Positions 9,725 through 47,330 of a stretch of DNA of 57,313 bases are shown here, piece after piece. Where the stretch lies: the NCBI RefSeq assembly GCF_017982655.1, contig NZ_JABXYX010000043.1, positions 1 to 57,313 on the forward strand, written 5' to 3'. How positions within the stretch are numbered: the stretch's first letter is position 1; the number at the start of each line of letters is the position of its first letter. The stretch is from Brasilonema sp. CT11 (GTDB lineage Bacteria; Cyanobacteriota; Cyanobacteriia; Cyanobacteriales; Nostocaceae). The translations under genes were made by a program, and so were the position numbers. The notes under the pieces are model-generated. The model searched no databases, was not told the DNA's origin, and saw nothing but the letters and a program-made list of their open reading frames with translations.

Positions 9725-9766
9725 ACTCTATTTACTGAATTGTTTCAATTGTATGTTCCTAATATC

Positions 9767-9952: not shown

Positions 9953-10006
9953 TAACGCTCCTACACTAAATCGTAATCAACAATATCAATTAAAACAGGT
10001 GCTGTG

Positions 10007-10476: not shown

Positions 10477-10565
10477 ATTACGATCAGCAGATAAACACAG
10501 ATAAGTTATCTGCGTCCATCTGCGTCCATCTGCGGTTTCTAAACCCCAAAGCGAATTCTTGCAAT

Positions 10566-29914: not shown

Positions 29915-30103
29915 CACTTGGAAAAATCAAGTGGGACAAGCAGATGCAGTTCTGCCCTTGCTTCTTAGCTTTCCTACACTCGCGTATATGATCGTCAAGT
30001 CGTCTCGAATTGGTAAGAATACTTGCTCAAATCGAGAATCATCTTTGACGATGCGATTGAAAAGTCTAAACTATTAAAAACCCTTAGACGAATAGGATGT
30101 GCC

Positions 30104-31948
30104 ATGCCGACCTATCGATCCAAAACCTCCACCCAGGGACGCAATATGGCAGGTGCCCGTGCGCTCTGGCGTGCCACCGGAATGCAGACTGCGGATTTCG
30201 AGAAGCCAATCATTGCGGTCGCCAACTCTTTTACCCAATTCGTACCCGGTCACGTTCACCTCAAGGATCTAGGCCAATTGGTGTGCCGTGAGATTGAAGC
30301 TGCTGGTGGTGTAGCCAAGGAATTCAACACCATCGCAGTGGACGATGGCATCGCCATGGGCCATGACGGGATGCTCTACAGTCTGCCCTCGCGCGAGATC
30401 ATCGCCGATTCGGTCGAGTACATGGTCAACGCCCATTGTGCCGATGCCCTGGTCTGCATTTCCAACTGTGACAAGATCACCCCTGGTATGTTGATGGCAG
30501 CCCTGCGTCTCAACATTCCCGCAGTATTCGTCTCCGGTGGTCCCATGGAAGCCGGCAAAACAAAGCTGTCGGAGCATAAACTGGACTTGGTGGATGCCAT
30601 GGTGGTTGCCGCAGACGCCAGTATCAGCGACGAGGTTGCCGAGGAATATGAGCGTTCCGCGTGCCCAACCTGTGGCTCCTGCTCTGGCATGTTCACCGCA
30701 AACTCCATGAACTGTCTCACCGAAGCCATTGGCCTTGCCTTGCCAGGTAACGGCACTGTGCTCGCAACCCATTTCGACCGCAAGGATCTGTTCCTCAACG
30801 CCGCGCGAACCATTGTCAGTATTACCCGGCGCTATTACGAGCAGGACGATGAATCAATCCTGCCACGCTCTGTGGCCAGTTTCAAAGCGTTTGAAAATGC
30901 CATGATGCTGGACATCGCCATGGGCGGATCCACCAACCCCATTCTGCACTTACTAGCCGCCGCTCATGAAGCTGATGTTGATTTCACCTTGACCGACATC
31001 GACCGCCTCTCGCGCATAGTTCCACAATTTTGTAAGGTGGCACCTAATACACCCAAGTATCATATCGAAGATGTTCACCGTGCTGGCGGCATCCCCAGCA
31101 TTCTCGGCGAACTGGATCGTGCCGGACTGCTCCACACAGACGTGCCGACGGTTCACAGTAAGACGCTCAAAGAAGCGCTCGATCACTGGGATGTCATGCG
31201 TACCGATGACGAAGCCGTCCACACCTTCTTCAAGGCTGGCCCTGCGGGTATCCCAACTCAGCAAGCTTTCAGTCAATCAACCCGGTGGCCATCACTCGAC
31301 CTGGATCGGGAAAACGGCTGTATCCGCAGCGTCCAAAACGCCTTCAGCACTCAGGGCGGACTTGCTGTGCTATACGGCAACCTGGCTGAGCGCGGTTGTA
31401 TTGTTAAGACGGCAGGCGTAGACGAAAGCATTCATGTGTTTGAAGGTCGGGCGCGTATTTTTGAAAGTCAGGATGCTGCTGTCAAAGGAATTCTCAGCGA
31501 TGAAGTGAAAGCGGGCGATGTGGTGATCATTCGCTATGAAGGTCCGCGTGGTGGACCTGGCATGCAGGAAATGCTCTATCCGACCAGTTACCTTAAATCA
31601 AAGGGTCTGGGCAAGGCTTGCGCATTATTGACCGACGGTCGCTTCTCAGGAGGTACTTCGGGCCTCTCGATTGGTCATGCCTCTCCGGAGGCGGCGGCGG
31701 GCGGCAATATTGCTCTGGTCAAGGACGGCGATCGCATCGTGATCGACATTCCCAATCGTACCATCAATGTGGATCTATCGGCGGAGGAATTAACCAATCG
31801 TCGTGTCTTCATGGAAGCGAAGGGCAAAGATGCCTGGAAGCCTGAGCTACCCCGACAGCGTCGGGTGACTGCCGCGCTCAAGGCTTATGCACTGCTGGCG
31901 ACGAGCGCAGATCAAGGCGCAGTACGAAATCTGGAAATGCTTGGGTAG
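30104..31948 (+). CDS. ilvD: Dihydroxy-acid dehydratase, enterobacterial [4Fe-4S] type
   Basis: 614 residues from [20 protein letters not shown] (ATG 30104, AGGA six bases upstream); E. coli IlvD has 616. It dehydrates 2,3-dihydroxy-isovalerate and -methylvalerate in valine and isoleucine synthesis. SNCDKITPG holds Cys122, and [15 protein letters not shown] spans residues 186-200. At residues 47-50 it reads VPGH where cyanobacterial and plant enzymes have TPCN, i.e. the extra Cys of the oxygen-tolerant [2Fe-2S] type is missing. Base composition is visibly G+C-rich with many GCC, CTG and ATC codons, unlike both neighbours, so it was probably acquired from a proteobacterium. It sits alone between two MysC-like genes. 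A decayed cyanobacterial-type ilvD lies at 46445-47209. Confidence 0.93.
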
Positions 31949-32263
31949 AGAAATACAAAAGACACAAAAACGGGGGTTGTGTCACTTGCAACAGGTCAAT
32001 GGTAAGGTGGGAAAGCCTATCCTTGCCTCCCCACCCTATTTTGGATTTGGGTAAAATTTTTGCAATCAAGCGAACATCAGCGATTTCTAGCTACACCAGT
32101 TACAGCCATTTTCAGCTAATTTAACCGCAAACTACGGTAAGGTAGACAGAGAGTGATTGTTTAATTCAATGCCAGTATGTTATTCATTCGTGATCAAGCC
32201 AATAAGTAGTCGTCATTAACTGCGTTCACTCCTTCCCTCCTTATTTTCAAGACAGGCTTACTA
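31949..32263. other. Spacer downstream of ilvD
   Basis: 315 bases without a supported gene between the foreign ilvD and the second MysC-like gene (convergent). Returns to AT-rich composition within about 30 bases of the ilvD stop. GGTGGGAAAGCC...TCCCCACCC near 32005-32036 could form a weak hairpin. Confidence 0.4.
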
Positions 32264-33643
32264 TCATTTACGGCTTACAGAGGTAGAGCTTTTATATCTT
32301 ACGTCTTCTCCAAACTGTATGAGTTTCCCGATGTTGAAATCAATCCTCACCCAAGTTCTTAAGGAGCGCAAACTATCAAGTAATAGTAAAGGAATGTGCC
32401 AGTGATGTACCATTAAGAATGGTAGTGGGTCGTTAACTTCAAAGATTGCATCCTTTCCTCGCCAAATATTTTTAAACCACTTTTGTAACTGCTTTAACGA
32501 TCTAATTTCATTAAGTCTCCAAAGTTCGTGATAAAGCCAATAAGTAGGCTTACTATCACTCAGGGGTTTCAGAGGTTCAGCTGGAGGCTCTTTACTAAGA
32601 TAGGCATCCGCAAAACCTGGATGGTTGTAATACATTGTAATCGCAGAGTGAGCGCGAGCGTTGCACTCGATCGCATAAATCGTTCCATCTTCCGCCTGAA
32701 TGAAGTCAAAACAAAGTTGTCCAGTCAGTTGTAGTTCTTTGACAAAATGACTCACCCACTCTTGAATTTCTGGGTGTTCAACGTTTTCGTAATTGACTTG
32801 AAAAGCAGATGATTCGCAGCAGCAGTGTACCGTTAATTCACCGTTTCTCACCGTATCGTGAGTACAGTATTCTGTTCCGGGAATAAACTCTTGCAATATC
32901 CAAGGGTTATCTTCACTAATTGGCTTACTTTTAACATGAAGCGCCATTTTTTCGGGAGAATCCATTGGTAGCTTGGTCAGATCTAAGCGTAAAACAGAGT
33001 CATAGACAATACTTTTGAGAATGTACTTACGCTTTTCGTTGGAAAAATCGAATTTAAGAACTTGTTCGGGATCTGTAATTAAGAAGGTTTTCGGGACAGA
33101 TAGCGAGAGTGAGCGTGCTTTTTGGGCAAACGTAAACTTGTTATCCAGCATACTCATTGTATCAGCATCGAAGTGAAAATTCTCGCAATAGCCTGATAAC
33201 ACTGGCTTACGCTCGGAGTCAAAGTAGCTGGCAGCAAAAATGCCTATCGGGACAAAAAAGTCTATGTTTTCTTTTTTGGCGATCGCACGCACGGCTTGAG
33301 TATAGCCTTCTAAGTCTTCTTGCGAGTCAGGAACTGTGTAAAAGCCAGCCACTGAGTTAGAAAATCGATAACCACTGAACCAGTATTGGTTGAGATCAAA
33401 TAAAATAACTCGATGCCCAGCAGCGTGAAATGATCGCGCCAGCTGAAGGGTTTTGGTCATTCTACCACCACCGATCAAGATATTTCTCGGATTCTGGTTC
33501 AAAACCACTTGTTTGCTGAACAGTCTGCTGAAAAAAGTCCACAGCAGCGATGCGAGTACGACAGTGCAGTTAAAGGGAAATGCGATCGCCAGTAATGCAA
33601 GAGTGCCCAAGTTTTGGAAGATTGCAAAAATCTGCTCTCTCAT
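32264..33643 (-). CDS. MysC-like ATP-grasp ligase, copy 2
   Basis: 459 residues, clearly paralogous to the protein at 28547-29875 along its whole length. It has the same membrane segment (TLALLAIAFPFNCTVVLASL), NILIGGGRMTKTLQLARSFH, FHFDADTMSMLDNKFTF, KYILKSIVYD, FDFIQAEDGTIYAIECNARA and FNIGKLIQFGEDVR at the end. One difference near the metal site: ECNARAHS here against ECNPRTHS in copy 1; ECNPR is the usual form, so substrate or metal handling may have diverged. Same strand as copy 1, with the foreign ilvD in between. The 34 bases upstream of the start are nearly identical in the two copies. Function as for copy 1: ligation of an amino acid to a carbocycle is inferred from MysC. Confidence 0.65.
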   Translation of the reverse strand: MREQIFAIFQNLGTLALLAIAFPFNCTVVLASLLWTFFSRLFSKQVVLNQNPRNILIGGGRMTKTLQLARSFHAAGHRVILFDLNQYWFSGYRFSNSVAGFYTVPDSQEDLEGYTQAVRAIAKKENIDFFVPIGIFAASYFDSERKPVLSGYCENFHFDADTMSMLDNKFTFAQKARSLSLSVPKTFLITDPEQVLKFDFSNEKRKYILKSIVYDSVLRLDLTKLPMDSPEKMALHVKSKPISEDNPWILQEFIPGTEYCTHDTVRNGELTVHCCCESSAFQVNYENVEHPEIQEWVSHFVKELQLTGQLCFDFIQAEDGTIYAIECNARAHSAITMYYNHPGFADAYLSKEPPAEPLKPLSDSKPTYWLYHELWRLNEIRSLKQLQKWFKNIWRGKDAIFEVNDPLPFLMVHHWHIPLLLLDSLRSLRTWVRIDFNIGKLIQFGEDVRYKSSTSVSRK

Positions 33644-33732
33644 AGTTGTAATTGTGACATGATAGTGGAACCAGTGGCTGGTGGCGAGTCAGAGGTTAAG
33701 CGGACAAACAGATGCGCTCCTTCCCTTGTTAA

Positions 33733-33769
33733 GACGACGATGCAGTTGGAGGGAAATGCGATCATCGCC
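33733..33769 (-). pseudogene. Scrap of a third MysC-like gene 5' end
   Basis: ACGACGATGCAGTTGGAGGG and AAATGCGATCATCGCC on the plus strand match the region encoding AIAFP.NC.VVLTS in copy 1 (29789-29820, CGACGATGCAGTTTAAGGGA) and copy 2 (around 33557-33590). Read leftward it encodes MIAFPSNCIVVLT. Only this short stretch survives. Confidence 0.55.
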
Positions 33770-33824
33770 TCCCCATTTTTGACTTGCTCCTGTGGTGGCA
33801 AGTAAACTTGCCCCTGAGGCAACG

Positions 33825-33858
33825 TGTTGTCCACACAGATTCATCTGTGTGGACAACA
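33825..33858. repeat. Perfect 16-bp palindrome with 2-base centre
   Basis: TGTTGTCCACACAGAT, TC, ATCTGTGTGGACAACA. No mismatch; no T-run on either side. Could be a protein-binding dyad or a cruciform-forming insertion scar. Confidence 0.85.
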
Positions 33859-34186
33859 AATCGTCGTCTATCAGTATTTTAAAGTACTGCACATATTCAG
33901 TTTTTTTAGCATCAATGGACACCGAGTCAAATGACTGCTGTGCTGCTGCTAGCTTGTAGAGTGTTTCTAATGCTGGTGCCAATTCTACACGAATTTTGCC
34001 ACCGTGAGGGACGTTAGCAAAACGTTGAACACTCAAGTAGCTCTTGAGCGGTTATTGAATAAATTTATTGCAAAAGTCAAATTTGTAAAAGTAAAACCAC
34101 AGATAGGTACAGATAAATTATTTGCGTACCCATTACAGCGAAGAAGCTACTCCCGAACCGCCAGAAGAATACCTTATTTAACAAAC

Positions 34187-34465
34187 CGCCTTAGCGCAGC
34201 GTGTCCGCAGGACATAGACGAGCCAGCGAGAATGACGGTGAGACCAGTGCAGCGGGAGGGTTTCCCTCCGCAGGCATCTGGCGTATGCGCTTTGCGCACG
34301 CCCAGAGGTCTAAAGCGTAGCGAGACCTTCGGTCTTCCCCGAAGGGCTTTTCCGATAGAGGCGACTGGCGTCGCCAAGTACGCCAAGAAAATCAAAAAGA
34401 AGATAGATAATATTACACCGGGAAGGGAGTAAAGGCATACCCGAAGGACACTGGCTCCCCTTACA
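34187..34465. repeat. Dispersed GC-rich repeat cluster
   Basis: Contains GCGCAGCGTGTCCGCAGGAC, GTGAGACCAGTGCAGCGGGA, GGGTTTCCCTCCGCAGGC, TGCGCTTTGCGCACGCC, CTTCGGTCTTCCCCGAAGG and GGACACTGGCTCCCC. The modules and their order resemble the clusters at 6136-6240 and 17038-17395, partly inverted. Confidence 0.65.
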
Positions 34466-34527
34466 CCCTCCCACAACTCAAGGTCTCGTTGCGTCAGTCT
34501 TGTATGAGTTCTGCGTTCTGAATTCCT

Positions 34528-36444
34528 TTAGAAGGTGAAAGTGGTGCGGAGTACACCTACAGTTGTTGTGTCGTTTCTACTGTTGCCTTCAGGATTGAAC
34601 AAAACAAATGCTCCAGGAGTAATGCTGATATTATCACTGACTTTAAAACGATAGTAAGCTTCTAAATGGTAAGGAACAGCCCGCCGCTCACCATCAGGAG
34701 TCAGTCTAGCATCACCATCTGCAGAAGTCCGATAAAGTGGCTGTCCAAAAATAAGCCCCGCATTGTTTCCTGGTTTGAATAAATCATTAAAGTGCAATCC
34801 AACCATCCAACTTGTGAAGGTGGTAGAAGCATTAACACGCCCAGAAGAATCATCAACAAACATTGCTGCACCATAGCCAGAGAAAGCAACTTTTGGAGAC
34901 AAACGCCAAGTTACTGTACCGCCAACGGAGTTTAGTTCAACGGGTGTTCCCAATGAAACACCAGCCAAAGCACCAATATCACTACTGATTAATCCTGTAC
35001 CCAGGATGTTGATTTCGTGATAACTGTGGGCATAGTTTAGAGCAAGATCTATCGAACTACTTGGTCTAAAGGTTAATTGTGTTGCGATAACACTACTACC
35101 CCCAAACACACCTGCTCCCAAAGGTGTGCCAGAAACTCCCGGCAGGATATCTGCGGCTGAAGTAGGAATGTTGGCATTTGCACTGCCATACAAAGCTCTC
35201 ACATCGAACTGCTTTGATATGTCAAAAATGAATCCCGCAGCCGATGCCAAACCAGTACCCGAAGTACCACCGGAGACACGTACCACGGGGTTCAAACCTG
35301 CAAAGCGAGAAATCGCTTCTTGTCCTTCACCAGAAAAAGGTATGATGCTAGGAAAGGCATCCGACACTTCCGCTGCAGTCCCAGCAAACAAAGTTAATTT
35401 TTTAGCGACGGGAAAGATATAAAGCAGCTTATAAAGCTCAATGTCATTGCTACCAGTGCTCGACAAAGTTTTAGGGTCGATCCCAGGAAATTGTGGTTCA
35501 AAACCGACACGAGCGCTACTAGAACTCAGTATAGGCGAAGCTAAGCCCAAAGATTCTTGAATGCTACCACTACCAGTTAAACCGCCTGAAAAGTTATAAG
35601 CTTGCAAACCAGTAATTAGTGAGTCTTTGCCTGTGAAGCTCGTGGTGAGATTCAACCGCACTCTATTTGTCAGGATGATATTTGGATCATTCCTACCAGG
35701 AGCGCCTCCCGTGGCACCAATGCCTGCTATAATTATCTCACCACTCAGTTTAGTGGTTGTAGAAAACTGATTTGCTTGCAATTCTGCTGTGCGAGCTTCT
35801 AAAACATCTACCCGACCTCGCAGTGTCGCCAGTTCTGCTCCGAATTCTTGTTGCAGTCTCTGCAAGGTGGCTAAATCCTCTCTTCTTACCAAATCAGCAG
35901 TTGCTGTGGCAACAAGTTCGTTGACTCGATTGAGACAGGAGTTTAAGCCAGCAGCAAATTCATAGCGAGTCATCGCGCGATTGCCTCGATAAGTGCCATT
36001 CGGATACCCAGCAATACAACCGTAACGCTCAACTAGAGATTGCAGTGCTTGAAAAGCCCAATCCGTAGGCTGTACATCAGATAATTGCGATACAGATGTG
36101 ACTTGTGCTATTACATTTGATGCAGGGACTTGATTTGCAGATTTTGCAGTGAGTCCTAAATTCTTGCTTTCCTGCTTTTGATTTAAAGTAGGTAGATTTT
36201 GTTGTTTGCTATCTGTAGATACAATGAATTTTCTCTGACTCTGGCTGTCTTTTTGTGTGTCATTAACACTACTTGTATTTTCAGTTACAGTACTGCTGTT
36301 TTGTGATAGTTGTTCTACCGTGTAATTGATTTTAGATGTGTTATTAGCAATATCTGGATTCGGTATTACTTGTGCAGATAATGGTCTGGCAATTAAACAT
36401 AGAAAACTGGCTCCGCTGGCAGAAGCTAGTAAAAATCTTCTCAT
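34528..36444 (-). CDS. SLH-domain outer-membrane porin (OprB / iron-uptake-porin type)
   Basis: 638 residues from MRRFLLASASG (ATG 36444). A signal peptide ends near RPLSAQ. A Ser/Thr/Asn/Gln-rich spacer leads to an SLH domain at about 115-180 (LSDVQPTDWAFQALQSLVER, GCIAGYPNGTYRGNRAMTRY EF), which tethers such porins to the cell wall. A coiled-coil stretch follows (REDLATLQRLQQEFGAELAT to LEARTAELQ), then a long beta-strand-rich C-terminal barrel ending in LRTTFTF with the terminal aromatic residue needed for outer-membrane assembly. This is the abundant cyanobacterial porin class of SomA/SomB type, often labelled iron-uptake porin. Two ATTATCA half-sites upstream (36600-36700) hint at Fur control, but no complete box is present. 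Confidence 0.88.
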   Translation of the reverse strand: MRRFLLASASGASFLCLIARPLSAQVIPNPDIANNTSKINYTVEQLSQNSSTVTENTSSVNDTQKDSQSQRKFIVSTDSKQQNLPTLNQKQESKNLGLTAKSANQVPASNVIAQVTSVSQLSDVQPTDWAFQALQSLVERYGCIAGYPNGTYRGNRAMTRYEFAAGLNSCLNRVNELVATATADLVRREDLATLQRLQQEFGAELATLRGRVDVLEARTAELQANQFSTTTKLSGEIIIAGIGATGGAPGRNDPNIILTNRVRLNLTTSFTGKDSLITGLQAYNFSGGLTGSGSIQESLGLASPILSSSSARVGFEPQFPGIDPKTLSSTGSNDIELYKLLYIFPVAKKLTLFAGTAAEVSDAFPSIIPFSGEGQEAISRFAGLNPVVRVSGGTSGTGLASAAGFIFDISKQFDVRALYGSANANIPTSAADILPGVSGTPLGAGVFGGSSVIATQLTFRPSSSIDLALNYAHSYHEINILGTGLISSDIGALAGVSLGTPVELNSVGGTVTWRLSPKVAFSGYGAAMFVDDSSGRVNASTTFTSWMVGLHFNDLFKPGNNAGLIFGQPLYRTSADGDARLTPDGERRAVPYHLEAYYRFKVSDNISITPGAFVLFNPEGNSRNDTTTVGVLRTTFTF

Positions 36445-36456
36445 GGCAACCCCCAC

Positions 36457-37094
36457 ACACTGAAATAGAGAAATTTAGACTGCGATCTAAAAAAAACAAT
36501 GTTTAAGTAAAATTAAGGCAAAAATTGCAACACAGTGTTGCTTACCTTGCCTTTCTTGTCCCTCAAAAAAGTTTTCTTTTAGAGAACTTACCAACCAATT
36601 TATGAGTAATTATCGCAAGTGTTTAATTATCATAAATCTATTTGTGTCAAAAATAGATATAACCTGTTATTTGTAATTTTTATAATTATCATTTGAGCAA
36701 GTCTTGTCCCATTTATGATAACGTCATCTTTTGTATTACAAAATACAAAAGATGACGACACCTAATTTACACAAAATCTTACTGTATGTTTGCGGTATTT
36801 GTTTGATATAAATTGTATATTTTTTGTAAACTTTTATCAAGATTTGAGAAATATTTAAATAATTCTAGATGAAAAAACCTAGTATTTTTACTCTAACGAA
36901 AGTTTAAAATATAACCTATGCTTCAGACAGAGGGATAGGGTGAAGATCTTTTTATCATTTTTTGATACAGAGGTAGATTTTATGTAGCTTTCGTAAAAGT
37001 AGCCTGAGAATTACGGAATCGCGATCGCTCCTTTTGTATCTCTTATCAAGAGTCTCGCAACACAGAGAAGCAAACTAAATATTAAGAGGATTTT
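36457..37094. promoter_or_regulatory. Divergent AT-rich promoter region with a 16-bp palindrome
   Basis: About 640 bases between the porin and the first PEP-CTERM gene. No gene is supported. The striking element is the perfect palindrome at 36722-36757; isolated ATTATCA motifs lie on either side of it. Confidence 0.5.
36722..36757. repeat. Perfect 16-bp inverted repeat, 4-base loop
   Basis: CGTCATCTTTTGTATT, ACAA, AATACAAAAGATGACG, with no mismatch. It stands about 280 bases from the porin start and 340 bases from the PEP-CTERM gene. Too AT-rich for a normal terminator stem and no T-run follows. Confidence 0.9.
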
Positions 37095-38009
37095 ATGAAG
37101 CAATATCTGAGATTTGCCAAGCGGTTTAGGCTACTGTTTACTCCCTTGGTAGCGACTTCTGTGCTTTTCACCTCACCCAGTCAAGCTGCTACTTTTGCTT
37201 TTTCTGATGGAGAATTAAGTTTGACAGATTTCAATGGAATTCTTTCCACAGAATTTAACAGCCGCAATCATGGTGAGACTGAAGGTATTGCTATGGGTCC
37301 GAACAGTTTTGTAAGCTTGGAAAATTATCTAACCGTAGAAACGTCAGATTCTCCACTCAGAGCATTTACTGATGTTGCTAGTACAGTGAGTGGTGAAGGT
37401 AGAAACTACACAGGAGTTGTACAAAGCGATTCGGAAATTGTTGCTAATTTTGATATAGATGCTGGTAAAACCTTGTCTTTCAATTTCTCCTCTTTTCTAA
37501 ATCTAGGGACACAAGTAGATGCATCTCCAGTAGAAAATGCTCAAGCAAAAGGGGATATTGCCTTTTATCTGTTCGATACTTCAGACATACCAGAAGAAAC
37601 TCTTTCTGATATTCTTATTGATTTATTAGACAATCCAAACATCATCAATAAAAGTCCACTTTCTTTCTTTTCTCTTGGTGGAAATATCAATACTCTTGGA
37701 AATGATTCTCTGCGCTATCATAATAGTTCAGATATTACCTTAACCGAAAATTATAAAGAAACTGATTTTGAAGGAAATGAAGAACAAACTCTGGCTGAGT
37801 ATCAGGGCTTTTTCCAACGCTATTTTGAAAAACAAACAAATCTTACTTTGATTGCGACTAGGAGAAGTCAGGCAAGAGTGACAGCACCTGAACCTTCAAC
37901 TAGTTTAGCTTTACTATTATTTTTGGGATTACTAGCTATAGTTCACAAAGGTAGATTTAGACCAAAGATTTTAAAGGACTCTTCTGGAATAATAGTGGTT
38001 AAATTGTAG
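37095..38009 (+). CDS. PEP-CTERM exported protein, family unknown
   Basis: 304 residues; ATG preceded by AAGAGGA. A Sec signal peptide (FRLLFTPLVATSVLFTSPSQ-A, cleavage about residue 31) begins the chain. The mature part is predicted beta-rich (FDIDAGKTLSFNFSSFLNLG, IAFYLFDTSDIPEETLSDIL). The C-terminus is a PEP-CTERM sorting signal: APEPSTSLALLLFLGLLAIV then HKGRFR, i.e. Pro-Glu-Pro, a membrane helix and a basic end. Exosortase/archaeosortase enzymes cut and re-anchor such proteins; none is visible here. An additional tail of 15 residues after the basic cluster is unusual. The next gene is a diverged duplicate. Confidence 0.85.
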   Translation: MKQYLRFAKRFRLLFTPLVATSVLFTSPSQAATFAFSDGELSLTDFNGILSTEFNSRNHGETEGIAMGPNSFVSLENYLTVETSDSPLRAFTDVASTVSGEGRNYTGVVQSDSEIVANFDIDAGKTLSFNFSSFLNLGTQVDASPVENAQAKGDIAFYLFDTSDIPEETLSDILIDLLDNPNIINKSPLSFFSLGGNINTLGNDSLRYHNSSDITLTENYKETDFEGNEEQTLAEYQGFFQRYFEKQTNLTLIATRRSQARVTAPEPSTSLALLLFLGLLAIVHKGRFRPKILKDSSGIIVVKL

Positions 38010-38061
38010 ATATAAATGACGTCAAGCTCTATACTAAAAATTTGCAAAGAGGTTTTTTTTC

Positions 38062-38943: not shown

Positions 38944-39039
38944 TTGCGGTAGGATGACAATCTCATAATTAAATTGGTTGGTGTCGGAGTAGCACTAAAC
39001 AGAGAGAATATCTTTTAAGGCTCTTAATAAAAATATTCA

Positions 39040-40224
39040 ATGAAAACCTACGACTGGATTGTTGTTGGTGCTGGTATTACGGGTGCTGCACTCGCCTACG
39101 AACTGGTAAAAAAAGACTGCAAAGTGCTTTTACTAGAGCAATATGCAACGCCACACAATGCAACTCGTTATAGTTATGGTGGTTTAGCTTTTTGGTCTGG
39201 TACCACTCCACTCACTCGCCAATTGTGCGACGAAGGTATCGCACGTCACCGCATTCTGTCGGAAGAGTTGGACGCTGATACTGAGTTCCGGGAGCTAGAT
39301 TTATTGTTGACCCTGAGCGCAGCCGAAGGATCAACCATTTGGGCCGATACAGACCCAGCAAGCGTGGCGGCGTCCTACACTCGTTTTGCTATTCCTCCCA
39401 AATTACTCAGTCCAAAAGAAGCTTGTGAATTAGAACCTTTGTTGAATCAAGAGGCTATAGCGGCTGCTTTAACTGTCAAACACGGTCACATCCATCCCGG
39501 AAAAACCACCCAAGCTTACATTAACGCCTTTTTGCGTGCAGGCGGTGAAATGGCGATTACCCAAGTTGTGAAAATACTGCCAAAAGCAGTGACAACAACA
39601 AAAGAAACATATAACACTGCTAATACAGTGGTGTGTGCTGGTGGATTGAGCCGACAGCTCCTCAAATCATCAGGTATTTCTACCAAGCTGTATTTCACTC
39701 ACGCAGAAATGATTGAAACTCCGCCTGTAGATATACAACTGCGTACCATAGTCATGCCAGCAAATCTAAAAAGATTCCAATTAGAAGCAGATTCCACTCA
39801 AAATGACGAATTGTGGAATCAATCAGGTCTTGAGCTAGTATCACCTATCTTAGATGCAGGCGCAGTTCAATTTCGAGATGGTAGTATTCGCCTTGGTCAA
39901 ATCAGCCGCGCCATCACAGATCCTCACACCTATGTTGACTCAAAGCAAAGTGAAGCTGAGTTAAGAGCAAGCATCGGAAAAACTTTGCCAAAATTAAACA
40001 AATTACCGGGAACTTGGCATCATTGTTTGGTGTCATTCAGTAATGATGCACTTCCCTTGATTGGTCTGGTTCCAGAGCGCGAAAGCGTTCACGTTTTTTC
40101 TGGTTTTAGCAATCCCCTTGTGATTGTGCCTCCTCTGGCACAACGTTTTGCTAATTGGGTCTTTGGAATGAAAGACGAAATTATTACCAAATTCTCCCCT
40201 GTTCGCTTTCAAAACTTGTCCTAG
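39040..40224 (+). CDS. FAD-dependent oxidoreductase, DAO / glycine-oxidase-like
   Basis: 394 residues. The N-terminal Rossmann FAD site is explicit: DWIVVGAGITGAALAYELVK, ending the strand with VLLLEQ (about 5-35). RYSYGGLAFW supplies the next FAD contact. HIHPGKTTQAYINAFLRAGG and TVVCAGGLSRQLL are conserved in D-amino-acid-oxidase (DAO) superfamily proteins, as is the C-terminal VHVFSGFSNPLVIVPPLAQR. Probably oxidises the C-N bond of an amino acid or amine to an imine with H2O2 release, soluble in the cytoplasm. The substrate is not predictable. It stands alone between the PEP-CTERM genes and the convergent protease pair. Confidence 0.85.
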   Translation: MKTYDWIVVGAGITGAALAYELVKKDCKVLLLEQYATPHNATRYSYGGLAFWSGTTPLTRQLCDEGIARHRILSEELDADTEFRELDLLLTLSAAEGSTIWADTDPASVAASYTRFAIPPKLLSPKEACELEPLLNQEAIAAALTVKHGHIHPGKTTQAYINAFLRAGGEMAITQVVKILPKAVTTTKETYNTANTVVCAGGLSRQLLKSSGISTKLYFTHAEMIETPPVDIQLRTIVMPANLKRFQLEADSTQNDELWNQSGLELVSPILDAGAVQFRDGSIRLGQISRAITDPHTYVDSKQSEAELRASIGKTLPKLNKLPGTWHHCLVSFSNDALPLIGLVPERESVHVFSGFSNPLVIVPPLAQRFANWVFGMKDEIITKFSPVRFQNLS

Positions 40225-40307
40225 GGCTTATAATAAAAACTGATGTTTCAGCCACTTGCTACAAGTACTCAGCAAAACAGAAATTCCTTTTTAAAACACT
40301 CACAACC

Positions 40308-40694
40308 TTAAATGTAGAATCTGTTGGTAGTGTTTGCTGGGATAAGATCCTGTTCCTCTACCACCGCTTTGACTGCATCAGATGCAGCAAGAGCTTCGAC
40401 ACCAGCGGCAGAAATTTCAACAGGAATTGTCCCTAGAACATCAGGACTTTCGGCTAACTGTGTGCCTCCAAAGTCCTGTATGATTTTGCGTATGTAATCT
40501 AGAGCTTGCTTGGCTGAGTTGCGTATCCCTTCCATCGCTGCTTTGCGTTCAGCACGTGACTGCCGCAAGCTTATTGGCTTATCTAAATTTTCTAGCTTTA
40601 AAAATACAATAACGCTAACCTTCTGTTGAGGCGCTAGATTATTTAGCCGACACGCAAACTCAGAACTAATCTTGTTTTTGCCATTATAATACAT
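40308..40694 (-). CDS. Standalone subtilisin-propeptide (I9)-like protein
   Basis: 128 residues; GGGAAG seven bases before the ATG. The fold pattern is that of the I9 propeptide of S8 proteases: strand VSVIVFLKLE (about 27-36), long helix with RKAAMEGIRNSAKQALDYIR, strand and turn GTIPVEISAAGVEALAASDA, then VKAVVEEQDL at the end. There is no catalytic domain. It lies only 21 bases downstream of the subtilase gene on the same strand, so the two are almost certainly co-transcribed. The subtilase has its own, different propeptide. A role as a separate inhibitor or folding helper of that protease is a reasonable inference; it is not demonstrated. Confidence 0.7.
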   Translation of the reverse strand: MYYNGKNKISSEFACRLNNLAPQQKVSVIVFLKLENLDKPISLRQSRAERKAAMEGIRNSAKQALDYIRKIIQDFGGTQLAESPDVLGTIPVEISAAGVEALAASDAVKAVVEEQDLIPANTTNRFYI

Positions 40695-40715
40695 GATGCA
40701 CTTCCCTGATAGTCC

Positions 40716-42068
40716 TCAACTAAGAGCACTCAAAGCTTCCCAAGGTTGGAGTAAACCCCAACCCCACCTATTGTCAGGACGACGAGCTGATCCCCCTGGA
40801 TGTTTTGCCGTTTCCCTGAGTACATTCATAATATCTGTTACAGTTGCTGTTGGCTTAGCTGCCATCAGTAAAGCTGCAACGCCTGCAACATGGGGAGTTG
40901 CCATAGAAGTGCCATCCATATAGTTGTATTCGTAGGTTCCGTGAGGTGTTCTCGTCGGCGGTATGCAGGAGTAGATTTGAGCACCTGGGGCAACAACATC
41001 TGGCTTTGTGACCAAAACGTTTGGAGCGTCTCCTGGAAACACGAGACTCGCTCCGCTACTAAAGAATGCGACATCAACCTTGTCTAATGGCAGTTTTTCT
41101 ATTGCACCCACACTGAAGGCATTATAAGCATTGCCAGGTGAGCTAGTGTTACCGTGGTTTTCGTTGCCGATCGCGACTACAGGTAAAATACCATACTGCA
41201 TCACCAATATGTCAAGTACCTCAGCGAACAAAGGTTCGTAATAACTTAAACCAAGGGACATGTTGATAATATCAGCCCCTCTTTCGATCGCCCAAGAAAT
41301 ACCTTCCAATAAGGTTCGTAAAGTCGTATCTCCGATCAGAACACCACCAACTAGCAAATTAGCTTGCGGCGCAACGCCAATAGAGAGACCTTTTGGGGTT
41401 TTACCTCCAGCGATCGTCCCACAAACATGAGTCCCATGCTGTCCAGAGTCAAAAGCTGGCTTGGCATTAATCCGCCGACCAAGTGGATCAATGACCACAA
41501 ACTCTTTGACTCGTTTTTCGAGTGCTGGATGGGCAGCATACACTCCTGTATCTAGTACCGCCACATTGATGTTCTCGCCGGTGGTTGTCTCCCATAATTT
41601 AGGGATTTCAAGCTGTTTTAATCCCCAAGTGACGTTATCTTTGTTTTCCTCGGTGAAAAGCTCAGAATACTCCACTTTCCGGGGTTGGATGAGATGAATT
41701 TTTTGATTTGGCAGAATAGCAACCACATTAGGTTGTTCCACCAGGGCTTCTAGCGTCTTGGGAGTCACTTCAACTGTCGCCATTGGCATTGCGCCAGAAC
41801 CGATAGGAGAAACCTCTAAAGGTTCATTTTGATATCCCATGTCTTCAGTTGCTTCCTGGTACTGATCAAAAAGCTTTGCAGCTGCTTGATTAGCAGCCCG
41901 CTTTTGAACCTCAACCAGCCGATTTTTTAGTTCACGCAAACGACCTCGTGGCGGCAAACCTTCAACTGGTGGCGCTTTGTAGATCACAATCGCATCGCGC
42001 TTGTCATCCCGCCCCATCTCAGCAAGAAATGGCTCGAAAGCTGGCGATATCTTATTTTCTGGATTCAT
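40716..42068 (-). CDS. S8 subtilisin-family serine protease
   Basis: 450 residues with the full subtilase triad: Asp173 (VAVLDTGVYAAHP), His211 (GQHGTHVCGTIAGG) and Ser388 (MDGTSMATPHVAGVAALLMA), plus the oxyanion Asn302 (AIGNENHG). Residues about 20-128 form a propeptide-like domain (DAIVIYKAP to VTPKTLEALVEQPNVVAILP). No signal peptide or membrane segment is visible, so the enzyme seems to work in the cytoplasm or be exported by a non-classical route. Immediately downstream lies a small propeptide-like gene. Cyanobacteria carry several cytosolic subtilases; the physiological substrates are unknown. Confidence 0.9.
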   Translation of the reverse strand: MNPENKISPAFEPFLAEMGRDDKRDAIVIYKAPPVEGLPPRGRLRELKNRLVEVQKRAANQAAAKLFDQYQEATEDMGYQNEPLEVSPIGSGAMPMATVEVTPKTLEALVEQPNVVAILPNQKIHLIQPRKVEYSELFTEENKDNVTWGLKQLEIPKLWETTTGENINVAVLDTGVYAAHPALEKRVKEFVVIDPLGRRINAKPAFDSGQHGTHVCGTIAGGKTPKGLSIGVAPQANLLVGGVLIGDTTLRTLLEGISWAIERGADIINMSLGLSYYEPLFAEVLDILVMQYGILPVVAIGNENHGNTSSPGNAYNAFSVGAIEKLPLDKVDVAFFSSGASLVFPGDAPNVLVTKPDVVAPGAQIYSCIPPTRTPHGTYEYNYMDGTSMATPHVAGVAALLMAAKPTATVTDIMNVLRETAKHPGGSARRPDNRWGWGLLQPWEALSALS

Positions 42069-42696
42069 TGCGATCTACCTCTTCTTCAATTTATTTTCAT
42101 CGGCTTAGTTTTTTACCATAGTGTGATTGCGGAATTTTGACTCTATCTTCTGTATTGTTTTTTCGCAAAAGTTTCCCTTGCTCAGGTATCCTGGCAGGAA
42201 AAAATGTGCAAACTCTCTGCTAATAGAGCTTCCGCTTTGCCAAAAAGCCACTATGGAGATGGACGAAATTCTCGTCCATCTGTCTCTCACCTGCTTATAA
42301 AAATAGCAAAAATTTAAATATTATGAACTTTTGACGATTTTTTTCATATTTGTGTCGAAAATGTGTTATCCCTTAACTAATTAATTTTGCTCTCCCAAAA
42401 TCAAGTTTTTAAATATATTTATAAATTTTCAGTATAAAAGTGTTGAGGGTATGCGCCAGCAGCGCTGCCTCACCCCAGCCTGTCGCTACTCAGTTTCACT
42501 TGGGGTTTAAATCTTCAAATTGAAAGTATCTTTCATTTTGCGAAAAGTTTTCATAGAGTGCAAGGACGCAGTCCATTTTGAATTGTTATACCAATTTGAA
42601 AAAAGAATGCGACAGATACACAGTCTCAAACCCTCGTTATCTTAGGCTTTCTTAATTTTGAATTTTGAATTTTGAATTGGTATTCTTTGCCACCCT
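42069..42696. other. Intergenic, short tandem repeats, no gene
   Basis: About 630 bases. TTTTGAA repeats (42644-42680) form a small tandem array close to the downstream end of the next leftward gene. CAGCAGCGCTGCCTCACCCC at about 42460 recalls the dispersed repeat. Nothing else is supported. Confidence 0.45.
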
Positions 42697-43440
42697 TTAT
42701 TTGATATAGTGCTGCATTTGTGCTTCTGTATCAATTTTTTCTGAAGCCAAAAGCTCTGCGGCTTCTTGTAAAAGGTGATTTTGTTCTTGTTGAATTTCCT
42801 CTAGTCGAGTAGAAATCTCTACCAATCTTTGTTGCTTATCTTTGTGAATTTGTGGAGAGATTGTAGGTAGTACAGTTGGTATAATATCAGTGGTTTTGCG
42901 ATCGCTCAGTTGCTTAAAGGCCAAGTTACCAAGTTTGGTAAATGATACAAAGCTGAGCTTTGCAAGAGCTTGGAGTAATTTCAAAGGAACTTGCAAAACT
43001 GATAAACTGGCTGACTCAACGATACGACCAATTGCTTTGATCACGCTCCAAGTAACAGCAAGGGCAAAAAGCAGAACCACTAAACTGATGATTGGGTGGT
43101 TAGCCGCCCAACCAAGAATTTGAACCAGCCGCAAAAGTGTAGGATGTTGCTCAAACCAATCACTCATAGCAGAAGAAATAGCTGTTTGAACCGCCACAGA
43201 TGTTGTATTTTTGACTTGATCTGCTGATTGGAATGTTTGTTCAACAGAAGCTTTAGCTTGCTCAAGGGTTGTCGTCACTGTATCAACAGTACGATTAGTT
43301 GCTTGAGATGCCCTTTGGTGCCAAGACTCGCCAATCTGTTGTGCTGATGTCGTTAAAGAGTTAACGCTGTGGTTAAGAAAATCTTTCGTCTGCTCAAAGC
43401 CTAGACTGATATCTTTATAGAATTCGGCTATAAGTGCCAT
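42697..43440 (-). CDS. Hypothetical membrane-associated helical protein
   Basis: 247 residues from MALIAEFYKDISLGFEQTKD (ATG 43440); the frame extends ten codons upstream. The first 110 residues are a polar, apolipoprotein-like helix series rich in Thr, Gln, Ser and Ala (TTTLEQAKASVEQTFQSADQ). One membrane segment follows (HPIISLVVLLFALAVTWSVI, about 124-143), then an amphipathic stretch (LQVPLKLLQALAKLSFVSFT). The C-terminus is a coiled coil (RLEEIQQEQNHLLQEAAELL). I recognise no named family. The architecture fits a membrane-surface organiser. Its upstream region contains a distant Fur-like box (43725). Confidence 0.65.
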   Translation of the reverse strand: MALIAEFYKDISLGFEQTKDFLNHSVNSLTTSAQQIGESWHQRASQATNRTVDTVTTTLEQAKASVEQTFQSADQVKNTTSVAVQTAISSAMSDWFEQHPTLLRLVQILGWAANHPIISLVVLLFALAVTWSVIKAIGRIVESASLSVLQVPLKLLQALAKLSFVSFTKLGNLAFKQLSDRKTTDIIPTVLPTISPQIHKDKQQRLVEISTRLEEIQQEQNHLLQEAAELLASEKIDTEAQMQHYIK

Positions 43441-44194
43441 AGAGTATTTCACAACGGACACTGAAAGCAAGATGATGAATTGATGAACTTGATTCTATGT
43501 AAGCAAAAATTTATCCGGTTGATTGTAAACTTTAGGGGAGAATGTGTTCTATCCCTAGATAGAAGTGCATTGATAATAGCTGTTTGTCTTTGTCCATTCA
43601 TCTTTACTCGTAAGGTTGTTGTCACAGTTGAGTGAAATCATTGAGTACTCTCAAGAATTAGTGCAGTATATCTTTAAACAGATTGAATTCTCTACTGAGA
43701 CAAAAAAATGACAATTCTTTCTTTAATGATAATGAATTATCATTCCTAGGTTAGAAGCAAAGAACAAGTACTATTTGTTACAAATTAAAAAGAGATGAAT
43801 TGAAATAGCAAGCGTTAAGCGCTTGTAAACACAATACCCATCCACCTAAGCGAAGAGTTTTTTTAGGGAACACTGACCTTAGCTTTTACGTCAAAATACA
43901 AGAAACACATACCCCAGTCTTTTACCAAACTCATATGCCTTAGTAAAATCTTTTAACCTGCTGATAAGCAGTCTCTGCTAATTCATGCAAATTAGTAAAT
44001 TTTGTCTTTACTAAGATAATAAAAACACACTGTTACACAGATAATTAAGATAATCATCTTCCATGTGAAGATTTATAACCTTGTCTACCCTAGCATTTGA
44101 GATGTTATGGGTATGACACTTTAGTAAAAAGTCTTATACTGCCTATTTTTAACTAGGAAACACTTTTTTTGAGCTATACACTGTCACAAACCCC
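43441..44194. other. 750-base spacer with a Fur-like box
   Basis: AT-rich region between two divergent genes. Apart from the palindrome at 43725-43744 no structured element or gene was found. Its length could hide a small RNA, since the box lies 285 and 450 bases from the flanking start codons. Confidence 0.45.
43725..43744. promoter_or_regulatory. Fur-box-like palindrome
   Basis: AATGATAAT, GA, ATTATCATT: a perfect 9-bp dyad containing TGATAAT and ATTATCA. The classical Fur site has one base, not two, between these heptamers, so the spacing is off by one. Confidence 0.5.
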
Positions 44195-44857
44195 ATGAAT
44201 GTCATTACCCGTTCGCTGAGTGTATTCAGCCTGTCTGTGTTTGCGTTAGCAGCCATACCATATGTTGCAGGAGCGTTGGAAACTCCAACAACTCCCAAAC
44301 AGACAACAACACAACAAAATATTTGTTCTTCTGATAGCGGCGAGAAATTACCGCCTTCAGCACTAGATAAGCAAAGCCCTTCTCCATTTTCTAACCTGGC
44401 AAAGGCAGGTTTTACACAGAAGCCAGATGGTTCCTGGGTTTGTTATGTCAAAGATCAAACAAAACAGAAGCGCTATTACACTTTGTTCAAAGTGCAACAA
44501 GTTAATGGAGCGCTTGTGGCTAGTTCTTTTCTAGAAAATGGCACTCTGAGCGAGGGACAGGACGTTCGCAGCTTGAACTTGTTCATGAGCCTGATTTCAA
44601 ACTATACGAATACAAATCAAGGGGATCATCAAGGTATCCAAAGGTATTTAGAATCCTTCATAACTCTCGTCAAGCAAGGAAAAGTGCCTGCGTCAGGTCG
44701 AGGGTATCTTTTTGATGTAGCAAGCCGTGGATTTGTGCTATATCAGCCCATTACAGGACAACTTCAGGGCACAGCAATCACGATTAACATCAACTCGCCT
44801 CAAAATTTAGATTCTTCTCCGGTTTCTCAGGCGAAATCCCATGGAGGGAGAGTGTAG
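44195..44857 (+). CDS. Secreted protein of unknown function
   Basis: 220 residues. A signal peptide (SLSVFSLSVFALAAIPYVAG-A) is followed by a Thr/Gln-rich spacer, then a compact domain with Cys at SDSGEKL-side and at GSWVCYVKDQ. RYYTLFKVQQVNGALVASSF and RGYLFDVASRGFVLYQPITG give it a beta-rich look. No family is recognised. There is no clear ribosome site in front of the ATG. It is followed, 110 bases later, by another exported protein in the same direction, and the two may be one transcript. Confidence 0.65.
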   Translation: MNVITRSLSVFSLSVFALAAIPYVAGALETPTTPKQTTTQQNICSSDSGEKLPPSALDKQSPSPFSNLAKAGFTQKPDGSWVCYVKDQTKQKRYYTLFKVQQVNGALVASSFLENGTLSEGQDVRSLNLFMSLISNYTNTNQGDHQGIQRYLESFITLVKQGKVPASGRGYLFDVASRGFVLYQPITGQLQGTAITININSPQNLDSSPVSQAKSHGGRV

Positions 44858-44967
44858 AAAAATTCAACATTCAAAACGAAATAAAGAAAACTCTCTCAAA
44901 TAATCTTTTTGAATTAGAAATTGGTTTTTCCTCAGTCCCCTATTGCCTTATTAACTGGAGGTTCATC

Positions 44968-46440
44968 TTGTTTAAATCTCGTATTACAAAAAGTCTTATC
45001 GCGTTCTCATCTTATATGGCGGCAATACTGAGTGGGCCTCAACAGGCTTTGGCTCAGCTCAGTATTGGGCATTACGGTGTCCAGCCAGGACTAGAGTCAA
45101 ATTATCTGCGGTATCAACTCTCCGGCCAGGATTTGAGTAAAATGCGAGTCATTCCTGGATGTGACGTGGGATTTGGTGCTGCTTGTAACAAGTCTGGCGC
45201 AGTATTACAGCAATTAGTGGAATCTAATAACGGACCTAGTTACAATGACCTCTTAATCAGAGCCGCTGGAGGACAGCAAAACTTTCAAAATTTTGCCTCT
45301 TTCTACGGAAATAATCCTAATCTTGAAAAGATACCGTACACCTCATTCTGGCAGAACGACGACCCTCATATAATGGATGGATATCGGTATACTCTTGGGC
45401 AAACAGTTAGTCAGACACCCCAAGCAGGTTTGGGACAGGTTACCAAGAACTTTTACTGGTCACCTGAAGGATCTGGAAACTCGCTTGATCCTCGCAGTGG
45501 GTTACTGAATTTGAAATACTCCTATGGGCGTTTGCTGTTGCAAGAGGTCGCAAAAATTCCTAATTGGAAGCAGCAGATTCAGTCTCAAGATTTGCCGCCA
45601 GAGGTCAAGCAATATTATGTGAATAATGTCTCTCAAGGGTTGCGTGCGTTGAACAGTGGCAATGAGGAGCAACTAGAAGGAAGACTTCTTAATGTCCTCT
45701 CCTCACCATACTCTCCAGAAGGAGCTCCGTTCAATCGTCCAAATGCTGGTATTCCTCCAGAGTTTGACCAGATTGCTGGGCAAGGTGTTCCAGGAGATGT
45801 TGTTGCAGGAGGACTGCCAATATTGCCCGGGGGAGACGTGATTAGCCAAGAATTTGCTCCTATTCCTGAAGCAGATGTTGTCACACGAGGTGGAGGTGGC
45901 GGGTTCCCATACTGGGCACTCGCTGGTATTCCCTTAATTCTTCTACCTTTTCTTTTGGGTGGTGGAGATGATAATTCCTCAAGAAATGTAGCTGAAACTC
46001 CTCCGGGCGGTGGTGTGACACCACCTGGAGGTCAAACTCCTCCCGGAGGCGAAATTCCCCCCGGAGGTCAGACACCACCCGGAGGCGAGATCCCACCCGG
46101 AGGTCAAACTCCTCCCGGAGGCGAAATTCCCCCCGGAGGTCAGACACCACCCGGAGGCGAGATCCCACCCGGAGGTCAAACTCCTCCCGGAGGTCAGACA
46201 CCACCCGGAGGCGAGATCCCACCCGGAGGTCAAACTCCTCCTGGAGGTCAAACTCCTCCGGGAGGTCAAACTCCTCCTGGAGGTCAGACACCACCCGGAG
46301 GTGAAATACCACCCGGAGGAAATGTACAGCCTATACCAGAGTCATCAACCTTAACGCCTCTTTTATTGCTGACAATGATCATGTCCATGCTCAGCTACAG
46401 AAAGTGGCTCAAGCAAGGGCGTAAAGGAATACAAATGTAA
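44968..46440 (+). CDS. Exported protein with PPGG repeats and PEP-CTERM-like tail
   Basis: 490 residues starting at TTG 44968, supported by GGAGG six bases upstream and an immediate signal peptide (LIAFSSYMAAILSGPQQALA-Q). The folded part (about 35-300) has no recognised family. A membrane-like segment (FPYWALAGIPLILLPFLLGG, about 311-330) follows GGGGG. Then come about 17 six-residue units of the form (Q/E)(T/I)PPGG (about 349-450). The end reads PIPESSTLTPLLLLTMIMSM then LSYRKWLKQGRK, a PEP-CTERM-like signal with PES for PEP. Two hydrophobic segments around the repeat rod suggest an envelope-spanning or surface rod; that is inference. Confidence 0.7.
   Translation: MFKSRITKSLIAFSSYMAAILSGPQQALAQLSIGHYGVQPGLESNYLRYQLSGQDLSKMRVIPGCDVGFGAACNKSGAVLQQLVESNNGPSYNDLLIRAAGGQQNFQNFASFYGNNPNLEKIPYTSFWQNDDPHIMDGYRYTLGQTVSQTPQAGLGQVTKNFYWSPEGSGNSLDPRSGLLNLKYSYGRLLLQEVAKIPNWKQQIQSQDLPPEVKQYYVNNVSQGLRALNSGNEEQLEGRLLNVLSSPYSPEGAPFNRPNAGIPPEFDQIAGQGVPGDVVAGGLPILPGGDVISQEFAPIPEADVVTRGGGGGFPYWALAGIPLILLPFLLGGGDDNSSRNVAETPPGGGVTPPGGQTPPGGEIPPGGQTPPGGEIPPGGQTPPGGEIPPGGQTPPGGEIPPGGQTPPGGQTPPGGEIPPGGQTPPGGQTPPGGQTPPGGQTPPGGEIPPGGNVQPIPESSTLTPLLLLTMIMSMLSYRKWLKQGRKGIQM
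46005..46320 (+). repeat. Coding tandem repeat, 18-base unit (PPGG)
   Basis: About 17 units of CCNGGAGGNNNNNNNCNC-type hexacodons, alternating QTPPGG and EIPPGG. Blocks of 36 and 72 bases repeat almost unchanged (GGAGGCGAAATTCCCCCCGG, GGAGGTCAGACACCACCCGG), showing recent block duplications. Confidence 0.8.
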
Positions 46441-46444
46441 AAAC

Positions 46445-47209
46445 TTAAAACAAATTCAAATCCGTTACTGCACTTAGACTGCTGGAAAATACCAACTTGG
46501 TATACTTTGCCAGCACACCTGTAGTGTAACGGGGTGGAAGTGGCTGCCAATTGGCACGACGATGGGCTAGTTCTTCGTCAGATATATGTAAGTGTAGTGA
46601 ACGAGCATGGGCATCAATGGTGATGTTATCGCCTTCTTTAACAAGAGCGATCGCCCCCCCAACTGCTGCTTCTGGCGCAACGTGATCTACAACCATACCG
46701 TAGGTACCACCCGAAAAACGTCCATCAGTAATGAGTCCCACTGAATCACCTGTAATGTCCGGGTTTGATGGTACCGCCATAAACAAAGATGGCAGGGATG
46801 TTCATGGGATCGCTATCATTGCCTCCAGCATATTTTTATCGCAACCGCCAATGGCAAGAACACCGTCCATACTTTGCCCATTGCAAGCGGTTTATATTGA
46901 ATCAGCGATGACTTCCCGCTATACCAAGGAATATTTCATTCCTTCGGTTTCCATAGAAATGCCATCGCTGATGGTAATTGTGCCGAACATTTGCGGCATT
47001 GCCTTAGCATTTTTTATGCCAATTTCTGCTATGAGTGCTAATTTGTTGATCCCCATATTGCAGGGGGTAATAGTACTATAGCCATTGGCTATACCAACAA
47101 TAGCTTTGGAGAAATTTTCATCTTGAAAACCAACGGCACGCAGCATTGCTCAGTTGGGCGATCGCTGCACTCCTTGCGTTACAACTTGGCTTCTTAAATT
47201 TTCTGATAT
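46445..47209 (-). pseudogene. ilvD: Wreck of the cyanobacterial-type ilvD
   Basis: Read leftward: SENLRSQVVTQGVQRSPN, TGA stop (47150-47152), [55 protein letters not shown] (46919-46921), REVIADSI, TAA (46892-46894), DGVLAIGGCDKNM, a frameshift near 46811, then [17 protein letters not shown]. At about 46750 the sequence jumps to [20 protein letters not shown] and runs to the normal C-terminus (AVTDLNLF). Roughly 300 codons of the middle are deleted. The likely start codon is ATA instead of ATG (47207-47209). The sequence is of the 560-residue [2Fe-2S] type with TPCN. It cannot make DHAD; the GC-rich ilvD at 30104 may replace it. Confidence 0.9.
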
Positions 47210-47330
47210 TTTGATAATTTCCTTGCGCCGTCATCTTTCTATTGGCACATTTACTTTATAATTATCTCAACATATCAGATACTTTAGAGCTGACGTTCAC
47301 GGGTTCGCCGAAAGATTATAGCTACCGTAG

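Follow-up and report, generated by a model that had tools for sequence, protein, structure and literature searches.

Several described systems resemble the locus analysed here, an ilvD gene for dihydroxy-acid dehydratase (DHAD) within a 57,313-nucleotide stretch of the cyanobacterium Brasilonema sp. CT11 (contig NZ_JABXYX010000043.1; this whole stretch is called the window). Pseudo-compound transposons and translocatable units of the IS6/IS26 type are a known kind of mobile unit. Mobile trimethoprim-insensitive dihydrofolate reductase (DHFR) and sulfonamide-insensitive dihydropteroate synthase (DHPS) are target-replacement enzymes which have spread among drug-exposed bacteria. The ilvD of the window is like the E. 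coli-type [4Fe-4S] DHAD (IlvD, PRK12448) in its full-length match, in the Gly that stands for the third cluster Cys and in the other two Cys motifs, which are kept; it differs in that it occurs in oxygen-producing cyanobacteria and apparently travels as a mobile unit, and its cluster is assigned by sequence. As in IS6/IS26-type units, the cargo is bordered by IS6-like tips where these are preserved, and by eye its two ends in several carriers would suit elements with one common direction; however, what is carried here is a housekeeping biosynthetic gene between decayed elements, and no complete unit was seen. Xenologous gene displacement is matched by a foreign homologue as the sole intact copy found and a native fossil at the old locus, whereas in this case a single mobile lineage is spread over numerous hosts, in which native decay took place more than once. 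Like mobile DHFR and DHPS, the gene encodes an essential biosynthetic enzyme in a mobile version of foreign origin, which stands alongside the native enzyme or takes its place, but its hosts have no known acting inhibitor and some lose the native gene altogether. Xenologous displacement and IS6-type units are already known; what is new is that an essential amino-acid enzyme is carried in phototrophs and that the native gene has decayed behind it more than once.

We consider it highly likely that a mobile ilvD of foreign origin with a [4Fe-4S] signature moved sideways among cyanobacteria and displaced the native ilvD with a [2Fe-2S] signature in the window. The foreign gene encodes a stop-free protein of 614 amino acids, which scored 1171.7 bits against the NCBIfam dihydroxy-acid dehydratase model PRK12448 (cut-off 710) and so falls within this E. 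coli-type equivalog; a first-pass annotation of the window had read an intact IlvD of this length here, correctly. The same annotation had called the DNA visibly GC-rich, in agreement with a G+C content of 55.6%, above that of the flanks, and a third-position G+C (GC3) of 59.8% compared with 44.6% in rpoB of the same genome and 33–43% in native ilvD of eight relatives. Its label "enterobacterial-type" was too specific, as the nearest IlvD proteins are those of Pseudomonas and Oceanospirillales (79–82% identity), and the enterobacterial Buttiauxella protein reaches only 74%. Among named proteobacterial genes the highest identity is 82%. Identity to the native type is 40% across the N-terminal part, and in a DHAD tree the foreign copy branched within proteobacterial IlvD, separately from the native proteins. 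The protein is predicted to be a working DHAD for branched-chain amino acid synthesis. The ilvC gene, which encodes the preceding enzyme, is intact in this genome, and the branched-chain pathway therefore seems kept.

The native gene persists as a fossil on the minus strand. Compared with intact relatives, its start ATG has become ATA and the frame is interrupted by TGA, TAG and TAA; a 4-base deletion shifts the frame, which then meets a further TGA (in all two TGA, one TAG and one TAA), and about 917 bases (about 306 codons) are deleted between the two remaining parts. The first-pass annotation, which left the strand unstated, had described a wrecked cyanobacterial-type ilvD with a lost start, three stops, a frameshift and a deletion of about 300 codons, and this description held against the intact relatives. 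When stretches of 13–17 kb were compared, the genes next to the fossil were also seen to flank the native ilvD, whether intact or decayed, in G092, G061, G011, G111, G134, G089 and G143, with some neighbours absent in some genomes; the fossil therefore lies at the ancestral place. No other ilvD copy was found in the whole 8.79-Mb assembly (G000; 411 contigs, 96% complete, 0.14% contamination) using the foreign protein, a native protein or Pfam PF00920.

In the related genome G092, which is assembled in 3 contigs, the foreign gene is inserted at the same place as in G000 and the native gene is present only as a fossil at the same locus, so that an assembly gap is unlikely as the explanation. 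The insertion lies between two tandem ATP-grasp genes, which are adjacent without the foreign ilvD (an empty site) in G061, G134 and G011; G111 and G143 are without the pair. In the empty-site alignments, G061 and G134 reach 29947/29948 and resume at 32257, and G011 reaches 29908 and resumes at 32237. No clear target duplication could be seen by eye in this comparison, the ends being decayed. The xenologous replacement proposed in the first-pass annotation is borne out by the trees, the fossil at the ancestral locus, the lack of a second intact copy and the same state in G092. A second intact native ilvD and contamination, either of which would have spoken against it, were both looked for and neither was found.

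Copies of the foreign gene could be found across cyanobacteria. In a survey of the window's family, 18 of 192 genomes, the window's included, carry copies 92–100% identical, those of the 17 other genomes being 92–97% identical. A phylum sample of 386 genomes added G246 and G353 (92%), G199 (90%) and a 76% relative in G223, and an order sample of 388 genomes gave 22 matches at E ≤ 1e-200, of which six had been counted before, with G622 and G642 only 81% identical. Rhizonema sp. PD37 (G047) is among the carriers, and in Kovacikia minuta CCNUW1 the foreign ilvD lies on a 1.2-Mb plasmid. The 39 carriers examined comprise 36 genomes or records of a main lineage, which includes the window, together with G622, G642 and G223. 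Main-lineage proteins are 88–97% identical, and their hosts span at least nine family groups (family codes f1, f3, f4, f10, f22, f46, f50, f54 and f57, plus Kovacikia). No two foreign genes among the 39 carriers are identical, and no internal stop was present in any foreign match of the three surveys. The 39 carriers hold the gene in 27–31 different neighbourhoods: a clustering rule gave 27 groups, in which seven genomes were joined by weak multi-domain matches, and a hand count with strong flank matches only gave 31. Sites are common to close relatives, such as G000/G092, G005/G058 and G030/G076/G138.

Phylogenetic analysis of 26 proteobacterial and 30 cyanobacterial protein sequences revealed the 27 sampled main-lineage rows as one clade (100/100). 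The proteins of G622 and G642 joined a Thalassolituus row (95/82) and that of G223 a Chromatiales row (100/93), and a single clade of all cyanobacterial rows except G223 was rejected, not strongly (approximately unbiased test, p-AU 0.031). Because these carriers group apart from the main clade, there were probably three proteobacterial IlvD entries into cyanobacteria, two besides the main lineage. From the sequences, the main donor may be traced as far as a gammaproteobacterial group in which betaproteobacterial rows occur as well. The genes of G622 and G642 (G622:C4:2853127-2854950 and G642:C1:16886-18712) appear to derive from a separate Thalassolituus-like entry, which has its own leader and is found in two further cyanobacterial families. 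The Chromatiales-like gene of G223 (G223:C1:2450500-2452341), 76% identical to that of the window, is its sole ilvD, no native copy being found in this genome.

A DNA tree of the foreign gene (38 rows) did not unite the five carriers of the window's genus, their single clade being rejected (p-AU 0.005). G000 and G092 grouped with three g47 (Rhizonema-group) copies (97/90) and G111 with G011 (100/98), and the position of G061 was unsupported. The protein tree of rpoB placed G000, G092 and G061 together (91), and likewise G011 with G134 (100) and G111 with G143 (99). Silent divergence (dS) was compared between the foreign and the native gene in the same genome pairs, using 13 family carriers with a stop-free native ilvD. 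Between genera (68 pairs), foreign dS was lower than native dS in all 67 defined pairs, one native value being undefined (medians 0.51 and 1.62), and lower than rpoB dS in 44 of 44 defined pairs, 15 being saturated (medians 0.41 and 1.37); nucleotide identity was higher for the foreign gene in every one of the 68 pairs. In the 10 pairs within genera, foreign dS was lower in only 3 (medians 0.31 foreign, 0.22 native). Between the window and the Rhizonema-group genome G120, dS was 0.21 for the foreign gene and 1.26 for rpoB. The foreign ilvD therefore spread sideways, as its silent sites are about threefold less diverged than native ones between genera. It is under purifying selection, with a median ratio of replacement to silent divergence (dN/dS) of 0.069, compared with 0.065 for the native gene.

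Native genes have decayed more than once. Four of the five carriers in the window's genus (G000, G092, G061 and G011) combine the foreign gene with a wrecked native copy; in G111 both genes are present, the native without stop or frameshift, and G143 has the native gene only. The TAA is common to G000 and G092 and absent in G011 and G134, the region being missing in G061, and the native deletions differ in all four wrecks; at least two native inactivations therefore took place. One TAG is present in the native ilvD of G089. No native copy was found in G199, and both types occur in G246 and G353. A native ilvD without stop or frameshift is kept in 13 of the 18 family carriers, so displacement is the exception there and not the rule. 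Six near-complete family genomes (G068, G091, G129, G130, G156 and G180) were without a whole ilvD. A third DHAD type was considered for them and rejected, as Pfam gave only two pieces in G156 and none in the other five. In G130, G156 and G180 (loci L195-L203), ilvD pieces are paired and lie nearly all at contig ends; they are probably near-identical duplicate native genes lost in assembly. A second native ilvD with three stops lies beside an intact one in G146 (G146:C1:4910154-4911896, L157), a genome with no foreign match in the family survey.

Homologous DNA among the carriers begins about 45–110 bases ahead of the start codon and ends no more than about 70 bases past the stop codon, and beyond this shared stretch the flanks differ except between close relatives. 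The leader before the gene scored above the best of 500 shuffles in 33 of the 39 carriers. The tip GGTTGTGTCGC was scanned for within 110 bases before or 60 bases after the foreign gene, with 19,500 randomly chosen places in these flanks as control. Exact tips could be found in 10 of the 39 carriers, tips with up to one mismatch in 14 and with up to two in 19, compared with 0, 8 and 393 of the random places. With up to two mismatches, tips lie on both sides in G005, G058, G538, G565 and G581 and on a single side in 14 others. A frameshifted transposase elsewhere in the genome of G353 (the sole long copy, matching Pfam DDE_Tnp_IS240) is bordered by the same tip, and the other end of this element resembles the sequence behind ilvD (CAATGGTAAG, at a nearly equal distance). 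A transposase fragment lies beside the left tip in G246 (E 1.5e-11), and G011 gave a very weak match (E 0.005); none was found beside ilvD in the remaining carriers, 23 being tested in all, or at 7 native control loci. By eye, the left ends of G005, G058, G061 and G050 resemble the right end of the G353 element and the right-hand ends resemble its left end, which would agree with a pair of equally oriented elements, the arrangement known from IS6 pseudo-compound transposons. On the evidence of these ends, the foreign ilvD was probably moved by IS6-like elements. The flanking end was rejected as a repeated transposon, as a 76-base end from the window occurs once in G000; it was matched in 8 of 14 genomes searched, at one place each and always beside the foreign ilvD. 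The insertion sequence (IS) ends gave no match in plasmid records, and a promoter and terminator scan gave counts no better than shuffles. Carriage by phages was also rejected: 25 of 50,697 records match, at best at 80.6%, and none of the best five is cyanobacterial, with one Microcystis record in the tally. The record OQ572411.1, named Pseudomonas phage Y10, holds a full-length ilvD at 9129-10958 with 80.6% identity to that of the window, which may be host DNA. Searches of open-licence papers gave none on this mobile ilvD unit.

The order of events may have been as follows. A gammaproteobacterial-type ilvD would have entered cyanobacteria, acquired a leader of its own and become flanked by IS6-like insertion sequences; this cargo, about 2 kb in size, would then have moved sideways among cyanobacteria and, in the ancestor of the window's species and G092, landed between the two tandem ATP-grasp genes. 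With the foreign DHAD present, the native [2Fe-2S]-signature ilvD would have become redundant and decayed at its ancestral locus, and an independent decay of the same kind would have taken place in one or more further lineages of the window's genus.

Several points weigh against this course of events. The genome G134 (an 89% complete assembly) has a frameshifted native gene, and the foreign copy was not found in it. A clade of G000, G092 and G061 was not rejected in the DNA tree (p 0.107), and G061 may therefore reflect a hop and not a new arrival. Between G000 and G092, the foreign gene at the common site has a dS of 0.18 compared with a median of 0.05 for 11 neighbouring genes, which is not fully explained. 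A separate arrival in G061, read from dS alone, was dropped, because this same-site gene also has about three times the divergence of its neighbours and the clade was not rejected. No tip within two mismatches is present in 20 of the 39 carriers, and in the tip counts GGTTGTGTCGC was chosen after the data were seen and same-site relatives are non-independent. No intact transposase was found beside ilvD in the carrier flanks compared with one IS240 transposase, nor any complete IS6-ilvD-IS6 unit, and the ends of G246 misfit the same-direction arrangement.

Other hydro-lyases with a [4Fe-4S] cluster, among them isopropylmalate isomerase and aconitase, are in use in cyanobacteria already. At the position of the native TPCN motif the foreign protein reads VPGH, as the first-pass annotation had noticed; this pattern, with NCDK and CPTCGSC kept, recurs in 38 of 38 carriers other than G223. 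By the signature described in PMC9543379, in which Gly replaces the third cluster Cys of [2Fe-2S] DHADs, the foreign IlvD would be of the [4Fe-4S] cluster type. The earlier remark that this would be an odd choice of enzyme for an oxygen-producing cell draws on the same Gly-for-third-Cys signature. According to that source, [4Fe-4S] DHADs are the more oxygen-sensitive type, and kcat is 70 per second for the E. coli DHAD and 0.47 for that of Synechocystis (PMC9543379). The Ki of aspterric acid is given there as 9 nM (Synechocystis), 0.3 µM (Arabidopsis) and 10.1 µM (M. tuberculosis) for [2Fe-2S] DHADs and as 51.6 and 35.1 µM for two [4Fe-4S] DHADs, a spread that the cluster alone may not explain (PMC9543379). 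A faster enzyme and escape from a natural inhibitor are accordingly offered as hypotheses for the selective reason. By analogy with DHFR and DHPS, the mobile ilvD might be a target-replacement resistance gene, an inhibitor-tolerant DHAD that spreads under DHAD-blocking natural products (for example fungal aspterric acid) while the sensitive native gene decays, a tentative idea which we think rather doubtful. Pocket residues taken from PMC11528067 gave no clear prediction and were not used, and none of 18 matched sequences with solved structures was a DHAD of the foreign protein's close type, the best being 6nte (E 9.4e-120).

A G+C content above that of the flanks is what assembly contamination with proteobacterial DNA would give. 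Contamination can in practice be excluded, because G092 carries the same insertion in the same cyanobacterial neighbourhood, and the nearest named proteobacterial gene is less similar than the copies in 17 other family genomes. One old acquisition in a common ancestor, followed by vertical descent with many losses and intragenomic moves, would fit the single main clade of the protein tree, the sites common to close relatives and the unrejected clade of G000, G092 and G061. Such a history is nevertheless quite improbable, as the silent divergence of the foreign gene between genera is about a third of the native value in every defined pair, yet is not slower within genera, and the copy of the window joins those of the Rhizonema group, apart from those of its congeners G111 and G011.

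Rhizonema is a genus of lichen partners, and one of the carriers belongs to it. Together with a function read from sequence only, this would agree with the idea that partners supply branched-chain amino acids, the foreign IlvD not being the main DHAD and the native gene hence being lost. The strong purifying selection on the foreign copy, its conserved active-site motifs, the retained ilvC and a score far above the equivalog cut-off make this very unlikely. The foreign enzyme might also be kept for oxygen-poor conditions, such as heterocysts or dark mats, with incidental loss of the native gene; the 13 of 18 family carriers that keep a native copy free of stops and frameshifts are what such specialisation would need, and the greater oxygen sensitivity of [4Fe-4S] DHADs (PMC9543379) points the same way. 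However, no intact native gene was found in G000, G092, G061 or G011, where the foreign enzyme should then serve all cells, so this role appears unlikely. Kovacikia (Leptolyngbyaceae), which forms no heterocysts, also carries the foreign ilvD.

If sideways movement and displacement are the right explanation, an essential biosynthetic enzyme unexpectedly behaves like a mobile resistance gene, crossing genera and families of oxygen-producing bacteria. The genomes form a natural series for gene replacement (native only, both, foreign with fossil, foreign only), and the assumption that phototrophs need an oxygen-stable [2Fe-2S] DHAD becomes testable. The two probable further proteobacterial entries would mean that the exchange recurs. 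Should inhibitors drive the spread, this would hint at chemical warfare on branched-chain amino acid synthesis, a herbicide target.

Table 1. Features of the window around the foreign ilvD and the native fossil
Feature	Position	Strand	Remarks
ATP-grasp protein gene	28547..29875	-	left neighbour of the insertion
Sequence absent from empty-site relatives	29949..32256	.	approximate extent, from alignments
Leader travelling with the foreign ilvD	30060..30103	+	contains inverted repeat GTCTA...TAGAC
Foreign ilvD	30104..31948	+	intact dihydroxy-acid dehydratase, 614 aa; [4Fe-4S]-type signature (VPGH, NCDK, CPTCGSC)
IS6-like insertion-sequence end, remnant	31975..32036	+	tip GGTTGTGTCAC, one mismatch to GGTTGTGTCGC, then CAATGGTAAG
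Paralogous ATP-grasp gene	32264..33643	-	right neighbour of the insertion
Subtilase gene	40716..42068	-	conserved neighbour of the native locus
Gene near the fossil	44195-44857		also among the neighbours of the native locus
Conserved neighbour of native ilvD	44968..46440	+	no Pfam match
Native ilvD fossil, 3' part	46448..46750	-	codons 487-587, 80% identity
Native ilvD fossil, 5' part	46778..47215	-	codons 25-170 of related native IlvD, 77% identity; lost start, three in-frame stops, 4-base deletion
TENA/THI-4-type gene	48237..48860	-	conserved neighbour of native ilvD in several relatives

The two tandem ATP-grasp paralogues of the insertion site (Table 1) are 69% identical, and a third copy lies on contig C328 of G000. 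The protein encoded at 44968-46440, next to the native fossil, has a long PPGG-rich repeat region followed by a PEP-CTERM-like end.

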